Source of the DNA: Cuniculiplasma divulgatum
Lineage (GTDB): Archaea > Thermoplasmatota > Thermoplasmata > Thermoplasmatales > Thermoplasmataceae
Assembly: GCA_031200235.1 (NCBI GenBank)
Contig: CP133595.1
Span: forward strand, 930,001 to 994,000
DNA length: 64,000 bases
Direction of reading: 5' to 3'
The notes under the pieces: generated by a model
Database searches by the model: none
Told to the model about the DNA's origin: nothing
Seen by the model: only the letters and a program-made list of their open reading frames with translations
Program-made: the position numbers and the translations under genes
Shown: piece after piece, positions 30,954-36,374 of the stretch
How the letters are laid out: the number at the start of each line of letters is the position of its first letter
Numbering within the stretch: position 1 is the first letter of the stretch

Positions 30954-31033
30954 TGTAAACGCCGGTTGATTTTTGTGCATTTTCGCCGGAATAAAATTGA
31001 CCCCCCTCGCCGGTTTAATTTTGACCCCTGTCC

Positions 31034-32210
31034 ATGCCAGGACAGTGGTCTCAATTGTACGGTCTGGAGGTGTGGAGAATGATACGCAACATGAGGGAGA
31101 AGGGAATGAGCATAAAGGCAATATCAAGGGAACTTGGCATATCAAGGAACAGCATGAGAAAGCATCTCAGATCTGAGCCGAAGGGAAAGCAGAACAGGAA
31201 AAGAGGATCAAAGTTTGATCCATACAGGGATAGAATCAGGGCACTCATAGATGAACACAACCTTTCAGCTGTCCGGATACTTGAGGAAATCAGAAAGATG
31301 GGATACCATGGCGGATACACAATACTGAAGGAATACTGCCATGACCTCAGAAAGGATCGCAGGATACAGGCAGTATACCGCTATGAGACTAAACCGGGAA
31401 AACAGTCACAGGTTGACTTCGGCGAGTTAGGTTACATAGAGATTGACGGGAAAAGGAGGAAACTCTACGCCTTCTCCATGATACTGGGATATTCAAGAAT
31501 GCGTTATGTGGAATTCACAACAGACATATCCACTGAAAACGTGATCAAAATGCATCTGAACGCATTCTCCTTCTTTGGCGGGTTCACAGACAGGAAGATA
31601 AAGGCCCTCTGAATCGAGATTCAATCAGAAGTTCATGGACTTCGCTGAATATTATGGCATCGTAATCCGCTTATGCTATCCATACAGACCGGAGACAAAG
31701 GGGAAGATCGAGAGCACAATAAAGTATCTCAGGTACAACTTCTGGACAGGCAGATCCTTTGATGCTCTCTCAGACATAAATGTCCAGTGCCAGGAATGGC
31801 TGAACAAGGTCAATGCCCAGGTACATGGAACAACACATGAGATACCTTTAGAGAGGCTGAAGGATGAGGAACTCAATCCAATATCGAGTGTGCCTCCCTA
31901 TATGACAAGGAAGGAGGAGATCAGGAAGGTCTCAAGGGACTGCTATGTTTCATACAGGGGGAACAGGTATTCCGTCCCCTGGAGATATGCCGGAAGGGAG
32001 TGCAGGATCATTGAGGAATCAGCACTGGTGAAAATAGAGATCGATTCCACTGTTGTTGCTGATCATCCTATTCTGGCAGGAACAGGGAGGATATCCAGAA
32101 AGAGGGAACATTTCCAAGGCCTTCTAAAAGCAATAAGGGAGGAGAATTCAGCTGTGTATTCCCAGGTCGTCGAGACAAGAGATCCGAAGAGATATGAGGA
32201 GGTGTCATGA
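31034..32210 (+). pseudogene. istA: IS21 transposase IstA, frameshifted
   Basis: The front part (31034-31612) has the helix-turn-helix MSIKAISRELGISRNSMRKH and the first catalytic Asp in VDFGE. The back part (ATG at 31635, to 32210) has the catalytic Glu in KGKIES and the C-terminal domain. Around 31580-31630 the frame breaks: dropping one C near 31610 would restore the frame. The segment that normally carries the second catalytic Asp (a YDN-type motif) is not present in any frame. I infer a small deletion plus a frameshift, giving an inactive enzyme. Confidence 0.82.
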
Positions 32211-32956: not shown

Positions 32957-33009
32957 AAAGGAATTGAAAGCTATATATAAGGGGGGTCAATTTCAAACTG
33001 GCGATTACA

Positions 33010-33094: not shown

Positions 33095-33226
33095 ATGAAA
33101 AATGTGAATGGGGATGGGAATACATCCATTCCAGAGAAAGTCTTCAGAAACATTGAAGCAAGAAAAAGACAAGCAGTTCCAAGTCTTCTTGCCTCAACCA
33201 AGAAATTATTTTTATCATGCGATTAA
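33095..33226 (+). other. Doubtful 43-codon frame
   Basis: A plus-strand frame starts with ATG at 33095 and stops at 33224-33226. It reads IPEKVFRNIEARKRQAVPSL in the middle, which has a protein-like composition. No family is recognised. It may be a remnant rather than a gene. It lies between the IS21-type element and the convergent STAS-like gene. Confidence 0.2.
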
Positions 33227-33259
33227 AGAAAAGCTAGAATCGAGATTGTCTATTCTGAT

Positions 33260-33586
33260 TCATAATATTGTTACTGTTTTAATGTTGTTGTTCTCAACAG
33301 GCTTTTTCTGATATTGTTTGCTATCAACAAATTTCAACATCTTCTCAACTAAGACGGGAACATTGACCTCTGAGACTGTCTTTGATGAAAGTTTCTTTTT
33401 CGTAATATATTCATGGGCAAACGAACGGCTAATAGAAGACACCATACTGAAGTCTAAAGTTATATTTGCGTCTTGGCTTTGCTCTATTAATTTAAACATA
33501 TTGTCGCAACCATTTCTTGTAGCAAGATCTGACCCAACAATCTGACAAACCTTTAGATTCACATTACACCTATTGCCATTAACCAT
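33260..33586 (-). CDS. STAS-like (DUF4325) protein
   Basis: The 108-residue protein has the DUF4325 pattern: a strand ending in GSDLATRNGCDNMFKLIE, then ITLDFSMVSSISRSFAHEYI. This resembles anti-sigma-factor antagonists but lacks a clear phosphorylated Ser. Such proteins often accompany GHKL-type ATPases, recalling the SpoIIAA/SpoIIAB pair. Here the gene is 60 bases downstream of a GHKL ATPase gene, which itself follows a DNA methyltransferase. The role is unknown. The local sequence is more A/T-rich than the core genes, suggesting transfer. Confidence 0.72.
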   Translation of the reverse strand: MVNGNRCNVNLKVCQIVGSDLATRNGCDNMFKLIEQSQDANITLDFSMVSSISRSFAHEYITKKKLSSKTVSEVNVPVLVEKMLKFVDSKQYQKKPVENNNIKTVTIL

Positions 33587-33645
33587 ATATATGTTTTATT
33601 ATTGAGTGTTTAGCCTTTTTTCTTCAACAAATTTGCTCGATTTCC

Positions 33646-34481
33646 TCAATATTCAAGGTAACTGTACAAATCTGGAGACAGGTTGGTTTTCACATTAAAA
33701 GCAACATAGCACCCTTTGAATACTGCAACCTCATTACTATCACTGGCGTAATCGAATAATTTCGTATCGTTTCCTGACTTCTCATTAAATCTTTTGCTCA
33801 GGATACCTCTTCCAGAGATTAGAATGCCTTCGCCATGCATGCCCTCTGTCAGAAGCCGAAATACCGAGTGAAGTCCGAATCCTCTTTCTCCATTTTTGTC
33901 TTTTGTAGATACTCCATTAATGGCTTTTATGAGACTGTCAGAGTCCTTATCAAAACTGATTCCGTGAGCCCTGAAATTTCCTGGAATAGATATACCATCG
34001 TCCATCAATGAAAATTCAAGACTTTTCTTGGAGGGATAATTCTGGAGCATAATGAACGAGTTTTTGTACTGAGAATGCTCTGTTACATTTGCCAGTAATT
34101 CATCAATGCTGTATTTCAGGGCTGAAGAGACTTATCATTCAGATTCTTCCCTATCATTCTGGTAATCTTTGATGCGATAGAATCTGCGTTGGAGTTATCA
34201 ATCCTTGAAAATGGTATATAGCTGGATTCTTCTGAAACTCCATTAGCTGTCTCGGATGTTATGTAATCGAGATATCCTCTTACTTCTCCATTCCTTGGAG
34301 GGATATAACTCTTGTTTTGTTTTGCTTCAGTTATGGTATCCCTTAGCAAGAGTATCTCTGATGGTGTAAGCCAATCCCTATGCTCTAAGTCTAGCTTACC
34401 TTTTGACTTATAAGTGGAGATTTCACTTACACATTTTATGTATTTTCCAACCAGATACGGGTAATTCTCTTCTCTTACCAC
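33646..34481 (-). pseudogene. GHKL-type ATP-binding protein, split by a frameshift
   Basis: Two overlapping frames join into one protein of about 278 residues. The front (GTG at 34481 to the stop at 34116) holds an N-terminal region with NYPYLVGKYIKC and RDWLTPSEILLLRD. After a one-base shift near 34116-34124 the other frame continues with ALKYSIDELLANVTEHSQ, an N-box of the histidine kinase/Hsp90 ATPase fold. Then come DDGISIPG (G1 box) and NGERGFGLHSV (G2 box). The back frame alone (ATG at 34050) lacks the N-box. The family is known next to STAS-like proteins. A sequencing error could also explain the shift. Confidence 0.65.
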
Positions 34482-35317
34482 ATAATTGTATCATTATTCT
34501 GTATTATAAGGCCACGTTGAGATTCAGTTGGTGCCGTTGCATACTCCACATTTTCTGGACTTTCTCCAGCACTCAACGGGGGCAAATCGATGAGAAGATC
34601 GTTAACCACGTATTCTCTGGTTGTTGTCTTGATTGCAGGGTACTTAAGGTGAGAACCAATAGACCACCCAATCAGTATAACTCTTTTCCTGTTTTGTAGC
34701 ACCCCATAATCTCTGGCATTGAGGACTTTGTAATCCAAATCATAACCAGCTTTCCTGAAATAATTTTGTACATCCAAAAAAAGTTTTCCTTCCCCAGCGG
34801 ACAACAACCCCATTACATTCTCGAAAATGAACACTTTTGGTTTATATTTTATTAAAAAGTTGGCATAGAGCCGGTACAAGTAATTACGTGGATCATCTTT
34901 CATTCTATATTTATCCCTAGCTCTGCCAATCAGTGAATAAGCCTGACATGGTGGCCCACCAACAATCAGATCAACTTCCTTATGCCCAGCTAGAGCCAAA
35001 TTTTCATCCACTTTTTTAAACAGGGAGGGCAATGATTCTTCTGTAATTTCTGCATTAATAATGGTATCAAGAATTTCCTTTGGGACCTTGCTTAATAGTT
35101 TATCAAAATTTATTTTCCCTCTTAAATACTCATTATACGACTCAATTTCCCCAGTTTCCTTAAGGTAATGGAACGCTGCTCTGGTTTTCCGCGTGTTTGA
35201 AGAGTCATTATTTTTCTCAATGTGCGCAACTGGTGTAAATCCGTTCATCAAAAATCCTTCAGACAATCCACCGGATCCTGCAAAAAGATCTATGAATACC
35301 TTCTCATCCATCCACAT
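34475..35317 (-). CDS. DNA (cytosine-5) methyltransferase, C-terminally truncated
   Basis: The 280-residue protein has motif I DLFAGSGGLSEGF, motif IV with the catalytic Cys in GGPPCQAYS, motif VI FENVMG, and motif VIII DYGVLQNRKRV, in the normal order. It ends soon after, at NNDTIMW, where family members continue with a target recognition domain and motifs IX and X. These are absent, so DNA recognition and probably activity are lost. The stop overlaps the GTG start of the GHKL gene. Two ATG codons (35317 and 35311) could start it. No restriction endonuclease gene is visible. Confidence 0.85.
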   Translation of the reverse strand: MWMDEKVFIDLFAGSGGLSEGFLMNGFTPVAHIEKNNDSSNTRKTRAAFHYLKETGEIESYNEYLRGKINFDKLLSKVPKEILDTIINAEITEESLPSLFKKVDENLALAGHKEVDLIVGGPPCQAYSLIGRARDKYRMKDDPRNYLYRLYANFLIKYKPKVFIFENVMGLLSAGEGKLFLDVQNYFRKAGYDLDYKVLNARDYGVLQNRKRVILIGWSIGSHLKYPAIKTTTREYVVNDLLIDLPPLSAGESPENVEYATAPTESQRGLIIQNNDTIMW

Positions 35318-35364
35318 TCCCTAATTTTACAGAGTTAGCTTAAATTGTTTGATTAATTTTTTTT

Positions 35365-35373
35365 GGTTCACGC
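35365..35373. repeat. Left target-site duplication of the IS5-type element
   Basis: GGTTCACGC here is repeated exactly at 36375-36383 on the other side of the element. Confidence 0.75.
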
Positions 35374-36374
35374 AAGTGTGTTGCATAATTCCCCTGTATA
35401 ATGAAATACAGGGGGGTGATTGGTTTGTATGACACCAAAGCCAATCACGGCTAAAGGCAATAGAAGCAAAAGAAGATATTGGATCGGTTCGGACAGAAGG
35501 TATGACAGGTACAACAGATCTCTTGTGAATAGAATTGAGGATCTAATGGACCCATCATTTCTCATGAACTGGAGGAATCTCCTTGCAGATAACAACAGAG
35601 GAAAGAGAGGCCATCCCTACAGGACACCAAATGCATTCATAACATTCCTTGCAAAACTCAGGGCAATGTACAGCATTCCCTTCAGGTCACTGGAGGGAAT
35701 TGCCAGGATATTTGCAAGGATCACCGGAATAACAGCTGTCTCCTACACAAGCATATTCCGAAGAATAAGAAAGATTGTGCCTTCAATTCCCAATTCTCAG
35801 GGAAAGCCTGTGGACTGTGCAATAGATTCCACAGGCTTCAAGATCACCATCAGGGGTGATTATCTTGGATCAAAATGGAAGAAAGCAAGGAGAGGATGGT
35901 CAAAGCTTCATGCTGTCATATCCATAAATGAAGTTTCAGTGATGTCATTTGCCATCACAGATGAACATGTGCATGATGCAAAGGCTGGAAAGGAACTGCT
36001 GAAATCTGTAAAAGAAAGGATCAGAAGGATATTTGCAGACAAGGGTTATGATTCAAAGTCAATATACAATACATTCGGGGAGAATACAATAATACCCCCA
36101 AGGAAGAATGCATCCACAAGGAGCAGGGGATCACCTGCCAGGGCAAGAATAGTCAGACAGATCCGGAGGACCTCAGAAAAGGAATGGAAGGAATCCGTTG
36201 GTTATGGAAAAAGATGGCATGTGGAGATATATTTCTCAGGACTCAAGAGGACAATGGGTGAGGTAATCAAGGCCAACAGGCCTGATTACATAGTTCAGGA
36301 GATTGCACTGAAGGTGCAGTATTACAACGTTCTAAGAGAGATGACATATGCCTATTGAATTGTGCAACACACTT
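35374..36374 (+). mobile_element. IS5-type insertion sequence, apparently intact and recent
   Basis: The element is 1001 bases long. Terminal inverted repeats are AAGTGTGTTGCATAATTC on the left and AAGTGTGTTGCACAATTC on the right when read inward, with one mismatch. It is flanked by exact 9-base duplications. It holds one complete transposase gene. The exact duplication and intact gene suggest recent insertion, between the methyltransferase gene and the end of an older related element. Confidence 0.88.
35429..36358 (+). CDS. IS5-type DDE transposase
   Basis: The product has about 309 residues from the ATG at 35429; a TTG three codons upstream is also possible. It has an N-terminal region with YRTPNAFITFLAKLRAMY. 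The first catalytic Asp is in CAIDSTGFK, the second probably in FADKGYDS near residue 210, and the Glu in WHVEIYFSGLKRTMGE. This is the DDE_Tnp_1 layout of IS5 relatives found in Thermoplasmatales and halophiles. It appears complete. Confidence 0.88.
   Translation: MTPKPITAKGNRSKRRYWIGSDRRYDRYNRSLVNRIEDLMDPSFLMNWRNLLADNNRGKRGHPYRTPNAFITFLAKLRAMYSIPFRSLEGIARIFARITGITAVSYTSIFRRIRKIVPSIPNSQGKPVDCAIDSTGFKITIRGDYLGSKWKKARRGWSKLHAVISINEVSVMSFAITDEHVHDAKAGKELLKSVKERIRRIFADKGYDSKSIYNTFGENTIIPPRKNASTRSRGSPARARIVRQIRRTSEKEWKESVGYGKRWHVEIYFSGLKRTMGEVIKANRPDYIVQEIALKVQYYNVLREMTYAY

Follow-up and report, generated by a model that had tools for sequence, protein, structure and literature searches.

The adjacency of a DNA cytosine methyltransferase gene and a GHKL ATPase/STAS gene pair in this archaeal genome very probably reflects a rearrangement in a stretch rich in insertion sequences, which united two unrelated modules: the almost surely dead start of the DISARM methyltransferase gene drmMII, and a self-contained kinase/STAS switch related to CapK/CapS and VapK/VapS. 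The genes lie in the window, by which we mean the whole stretch of 64,000 nucleotides that was analysed, and an earlier note on this DNA had proposed that the three of them form one possible defence or gene-control module. Our analysis removes this false lead, as it argues against any methyltransferase-kinase-STAS module and reads the apparent gene overlap as a rearrangement joint. It also allows a widespread archaeal pair of unknown function to be placed by a system whose chemistry was solved in 2026, and the phosphorylation site, a possible ssDNA trigger and the missing target can now be addressed by direct tests on a small system of two proteins.

The layout described in the earlier note was confirmed, with one refinement at the end of the methyltransferase ORF. 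All three grouped minus-strand genes are present at 33260-35317 (Table 1), and both lesions claimed for them are real: the methyltransferase lacks its last ~150 codons (intact relatives are 414-424 aa long), and DNA alignment finds the GHKL gene one base short relative to its relatives at about 34116-34120, which splits the kinase N-terminal half from the ATP-binding half. The STAS gene is full length and its frame is open. The copy is A/T-rich, as had been stated, with a G+C content of 36% in the pair and 40% in the methyltransferase vs 47.6% in the window, and it does sit among insertion sequences, flanked by an IS21 copy and a DDE transposase gene. In the IS21 copy, a break near 31612-31635 leaves istA (window 31034-32210) in two frames, and istB is intact. 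Elsewhere, the same genome carries a second defence-like cluster (L022:2766-9424; 800765-807423), with genes for a C5 methyltransferase of 337 aa, a small protein resembling Vsr and a helicase-nuclease of the UvrD type.

Table 1. Features of the methyltransferase-kinase-STAS stretch (window coordinates) and HhH-type genes of related DISARM operons (locus coordinates).
Feature	Position	Strand	Evidence or remark
C5 cytosine methyltransferase ORF	34475-35317	(-)	Pfam PF00145, E=6.5e-39; 280 aa
drmMII upstream leader	35318..35388	(-)	BLASTN; homologous to G381, ends near insertion sequence
drmMII 5' remnant, codons 1 to ~265	34522..35317	(-)	DNA identity to G381 L111; PADLOC DrmMII
Rearrangement joint, 12 bp	34510..34521		Resembles neither DISARM relative nor kinase-pair relative
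Whole kinase/STAS unit with leader	33223..34509	(-)	77.7% over 1292 bp to free-standing G381 pair
TTATAATA, TATA-like element of kinase gene	34502..34509	(-)	Putative promoter element
GHKL ATPase gene, in two frames	34116-34481 + 33646-34119	(-)	
Kinase N-terminal part (STAS-like domain and linker)	34116..34481	(-)	GTG start; ends at frameshift
GHKL (Bergerat) ATP-binding half	33646..34119	(-)	N box about 34075-34101, G1 box about 33982-34002
DUF4325 STAS-like gene, intact	33260-33586	(-)	PF14213, 23.4 bits (cut-off 23); 108 aa
SRSFA motif of STAS partner	33416-33430	(-)	Invariant Ser55
IS21 copy	arms 30983-31007 and 32980-33004		Flanks the stretch
DDE transposase gene	35420-36358		Flanks the stretch
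HhH-type DISARM genes	L111:9404-10087, L020:6756-7427, L112:11252-11938, L113:8844-9545		

Each side of the stretch has its nearest relative in G381, a genome of the same family. As to the origin of METHYLTRANSFERASE, window 34522-35388 shares 88.8% DNA identity with the beginning of an intact DISARM operon of that genome (L111), and the operon matches the window there and nowhere else. The closest relative of the kinase/STAS pair lies on another contig of G381 (L079, found again in L125; kinase gene L079:7980-8816, STAS gene L079:8826-9200), intact and free-standing; no methyltransferase occurs upstream of it, and the rest of the L079 contig stretch has no match in the window. These two independent local alignments stop at 34522 (L111) and at 34509 (L079), and because only 12 bp remain between the two homologies, they mark the adjacency of methyltransferase and pair as a rearrangement joint. 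The TATA-like element of the window's kinase gene belongs to the pair's side, and TTAAAATA of L079 is equally far from the same GTG start. A BLASTP match that runs to residue 279 would make the end of the methyltransferase ORF genuine; we rejected this, as the DNA alignments trace its last ~10 codons to the leader of the GHKL gene and not to methyltransferase sequence, and the 7-bp overlap of the two genes is therefore accidental. The halves are likewise apart in G184, with the DISARM operon on contig C3 and pairs on other contigs, a second relative of the window pair (68.7%) being free-standing there. The earlier note had suggested comparing relatives for an intact version: G381 has an intact DISARM operon and an intact pair, neither beside the other, and no trio.

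By DNA alignment, 34522-35388 is identified as the beginning of drmMII, the first gene in a DISARM operon, and as the sole remainder of DISARM at this site. The PADLOC DrmMII model (PDLC02649) matches at E=3e-96, over model positions 6-265 of 422 only, and the C-terminal third, in which intact relatives bear SVREAARLQSFPDN- and QIGNAVPP-type motifs, is missing. We looked for further DISARM remnants elsewhere in the window and found none, and neither drmA nor drmB has a match in the whole host genome, while two control genomes match. With its C-terminal third lost and no DrmA or DrmB in the genome, the drmMII remnant is almost surely dead. The intact G381 operon consists of drmMII (product 414 aa), a gene for an HhH protein labelled as a type II nicking endonuclease, drmA, drmB and drmC (PADLOC E-values: DrmMII 6e-170, DrmA 0, DrmB 5e-193, DrmC 2e-45), and operons with the same core occur in G029, G184 and G049.

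Two features of these operons were observed in passing. In Thermoplasmata DISARM operons, drmMII and drmA are separated by a gene of the HhH type (Table 1), for which the PADLOC label is type II nicking endonuclease; presumably it is equally likely to encode a T:G-mismatch glycosylase like Mig.MthI, acting against 5-methylcytosine deamination in hot growth. Directly after drmC in G381 lies a gene for a 1000-aa protein (L111:381-3383) that has no PADLOC match and is a possible extra component of DISARM.

Relative to L079, the kinase N-terminal part retains 69% amino-acid identity and the GHKL ATP-binding half 82% (Ka/Ks 0.10), with Ka/Ks values of 0.10-0.30 for the two kinase halves and 0.10-0.39 for the pair overall; the methyltransferase gives 0.16 against its G381 relative, and these values indicate that both modules were under purifying selection up to recently. 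Searches of Pfam, NCBIfam and PADLOC left both halves of the broken kinase without a usable match, and the intact L079 kinase itself matches HATPase_c at 2e-5, just under Pfam's curated cut-off. An internal ATG at 34050 lies past the N box, so that a restart there would omit this box and the window kinase is most likely dead; with the frame broken, the switch is probably inactive in its host unless the frameshift is a sequencing error. Such an error, in sequencing or assembly, which would leave an intact and working switch, we consider unlikely though by no means negligible. The low Ka/Ks of the kinase halves and the open STAS gene would fit it, as would the frames split at other places in L008, L056, L092 and L099; however, the genome is a single contig, and the neighbouring methyltransferase is truncated in an area rich in insertion sequences, where decay is to be expected. 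A programmed frameshift was set aside, since the split frames in other loci sit elsewhere.

Outside the window, the pair is widespread. We collected 53 GHKL loci from Thermoplasmatota, Woesearchaeota, methanogens, Bacteroidota, Halobaculum and Deinococcus plasmids, and phages, many of the relatives being metagenome contigs. A STAS gene adjoins the GHKL gene in 51 of the 53, and the other two loci are cut by contig ends; the earlier note's SpoIIAB/SpoIIAA-like pairing of a GHKL protein with a DUF4325 protein is upheld by this adjacency and by the fold matches given below. The partner was recognised by profile in 49/53 loci and by Pfam in two more (L067 and L116), counts that rest on a clean profile plus Pfam, as a STAS profile iterated with no length limit drew in GHKL proteins. 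Of 46 complete pairs, 44 have both genes on the same strand, and 42 follow the kinase-then-STAS order. Searches of phage and plasmid proteins returned few records, and a scan of IMG/VR one weak locus. Clustering of neighbours for a hidden third gene showed little that recurs beyond neighbours common to related genomes and a translation cluster in four archaeal loci. In the latter, rio kinase and KH-protein genes stand near the pair in different lineages (L065:7705-10800, L052, L054 and L077); this neighbourhood is probably due to chance, and the pair is not in that operon. Full-text literature searches yielded nothing on function for DUF4325, for 'STAS-like' with GHKL, or for MTH315/MTH316.

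Sequence motifs and predicted folds both place the two proteins among kinase/STAS systems. Invariant kinase residues are E128, N132 and H136 in the N box, D161 and G163 in G1, and G201 and G203 in G2. The model of the intact L079 kinase (pLDDT 84.7, pTM 0.86) combines an N-terminal alpha/beta STAS-like domain with a GHKL domain, and that of the 108-aa STAS partner (pLDDT 80.8) is a single STAS-type domain whose last STAS helix is followed by a ~15-aa tail. Their best PDB fold matches have weak Foldseek E-values (0.001-0.1); they are SpoIIAB 1tid for the whole kinase (probability 1.00, TM 0.67 on target) and RsbS 6jhk (1.00) and SpoIIAA 1tid_B (0.96) for the partner. Pfam scans recognised no HTH on the kinase. 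In the partner, all 34 aligned sequences have Ser55 of the SRSFA motif. It opens the second STAS helix, the place of the phosphorylated Ser in SpoIIAA, CapS and VapS, and presumably fits the SpoIIAA register. Ser48 of VapS lies one residue ahead of the Ser55 position in gapless register, an offset that makes the assignment of the phospho-site approximate. A profile of the 34 partners has Escherichia VapS (9z7o, E=0.0012) as its top match among 177,635 PDB sequences. In the STAS-like domain of the kinase, a conserved [W/F]-x-x-P column holds an aromatic W or F in 29/32 sequences, and an aromatic also in L067 and L116; it is a candidate for the ssDNA-stacking residue, whose counterparts would be CapK W68 and VapK F54.

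Chambers et al. (EMBO J 2026; PMC13373217) describe CapK/CapS, an HTH-STAS-GHKL kinase and a STAS-winged-helix repressor encoded beside immune operons, and VapKSC, made up of a STAS-GHKL kinase, a STAS antitoxin and a PIN toxin. CapK is activated by ssDNA and phosphorylates the STAS protein, upon which phosphorylated CapS releases DNA; phosphorylated VapS releases its toxin, the phosphorylation of VapS by VapK being modelled and mutant-supported, not measured (PMC13373217). We infer that the archaeal pair works like these systems. At rest, its STAS protein would hold a target; a stress signal, possibly ssDNA between the STAS-like and GHKL domains, would activate the kinase; the active kinase would phosphorylate Ser55; and the phosphorylated STAS protein might then free its target, a last step that is a guess, as no target or effector was found. 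More broadly, we put forward as a tentative proposal, possible if somewhat doubtful, that a free-standing kinase/STAS damage switch, kin to CapKS and VapKSC, exists in archaea and in some bacteria and phages; it would lack both a linked toxin and a DNA-binding domain and would act in trans on a target whose gene lies elsewhere.

A more specific reading, in which the pair is a remnant of VapKSC whose STAS protein is an antitoxin and whose PIN nuclease gene was lost or operates from a different site, appears rather improbable. VapS is the best PDB sequence match of the partner; related operons with a PIN gene are found in L067, from the same archaeal class (E=6e-8), and on a Deinococcus plasmid; and ORFB-ORFC-ORFD of phage psiM100 end in a weak PIN match. 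In the close relatives L006-L009, L055 and L079, however, no PIN gene was seen after the STAS gene, so that any loss must be an ancient one which they have in common.

The most serious rival to a union of two unrelated modules concerns the joint. A composite locus may have lost its middle, the pair having once stood downstream of DISARM until one internal deletion joined the drmMII start to it. Orientation and order are the same as in restriction-modification/capKS loci, and there is a precedent in bacteria, where 88 of 443 capKS have a restriction-modification system immediately upstream (PMC13373217). Relatives of both halves also occur in the same two genomes, G381 and G184, which leaves room for an older link. 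Against this, the pairs of G381 and G184 are on other contigs with upstream sequence of their own; no pair was found in the fetched flanks of methyltransferase and DISARM loci, including L020, L111-L114 and L122-L124; and none was found in G029, G391 or G049, despite their having such methyltransferases. An internal deletion is on this evidence quite improbable, and we retain the union of unrelated modules by rearrangement.

It is very unlikely that the pair is a classical partner switch controlling transcription in the manner of SpoIIAB/SpoIIAA or RsbT/RsbS, which act on sigma factors or stressosomes. The best fold matches are indeed SpoIIAB/SpoIIAA and RsbS, but archaea are established to have neither sigma factors nor stressosomes of this kind, the kinase has a STAS-like domain of its own, as do CapK and VapK and as SpoIIAB does not, and the neighbours of the pair vary. 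The three-gene module of the earlier note, for which the same-strand 7-bp overlap in the window speaks, can be dismissed with near certainty and is refuted by what it had itself proposed to look for: no C5 methyltransferase profile match occurs in any of the 53 pair loci (635 kb in total, with flank length varying with the contig), while all 11 control loci were recognised; no other genome seen has the trio; the pair occurs widely with no methyltransferase, its closest relative included; the intact methyltransferase belongs to DISARM; and the joint falls between two homologies, the overlap stemming from the GHKL leader.

Among known systems, the methyltransferase piece resembles intact archaeal drmMII at the DNA level, but the window keeps ~265 codons of this first gene only, in a genome that has neither drmA nor drmB. 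The pair shares with SpoIIAB/SpoIIAA and RsbT/RsbS (PDB 1tid, 6jhk) the fold, the N-box Glu and Asn and a Ser at the phospho-acceptor register, whereas its kinase has an extra N-terminal STAS-like domain; to our knowledge, archaea lack bacterial sigma factors.

Insert IFa of the Methanothermobacter phage psiM100 (L070:3989-6610; AF301375.1, 7090-9711) has the same order, its ORFB being related to the GHKL protein (36% identity across 93% of the query) and the adjoining ORFC a DUF4325 protein. It differs in its prophage setting and in what comes next, ORFD, which starts with MKILVDTNILIY 11 bp after the ORFC STAS gene and whose match to PIN is weak (16.3 bits, cut-off 23.6). ORFB-ORFC-ORFD is probably a VapKSC-type module, where the record says only unknown. 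ORFB (L070:3989-4744) also weakly matches the PADLOC DrmA model (positions 138-270 of 1750, E=3.5e-6), and this suggests a GHKL domain in some of the long DrmA proteins.

With CapK/CapS the pair has in common a STAS-GHKL kinase and, adjacent to it and in the same order, a STAS substrate whose Ser is invariant. Unlike CapK/CapS, no N-terminal HTH is recognised on the kinase, the STAS protein has no winged-helix domain, and the pair is not upstream of an immune operon, its chromosomal neighbours varying among relatives. It is most like VapK/VapS, which likewise consists of an HTH-less STAS-GHKL kinase and then one small STAS protein that ends in a short C-terminal tail; the conserved kinase residues and the Ser agree, and the family profile matches VapS first. 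The differences are that the window and the close relatives have no adjacent PIN-domain VapC, one being present in L067 and L116, and that the sequences are distant (SRSFA here vs ASPFF) and VapKSC has been described so far in bacteria. The VapKSC survey names bacterial groups (PMC13373217); a complete GHKL kinase - DUF4325 - PIN trio, the VapKSC arrangement, is found at L067:107-1898 in the same archaeal class as the window. Taken by its domains and gene order, the archaeal pair belongs to the kinase/STAS kind represented by CapK/CapS and VapK/VapS, and is strictly neither CapKS nor VapKSC.
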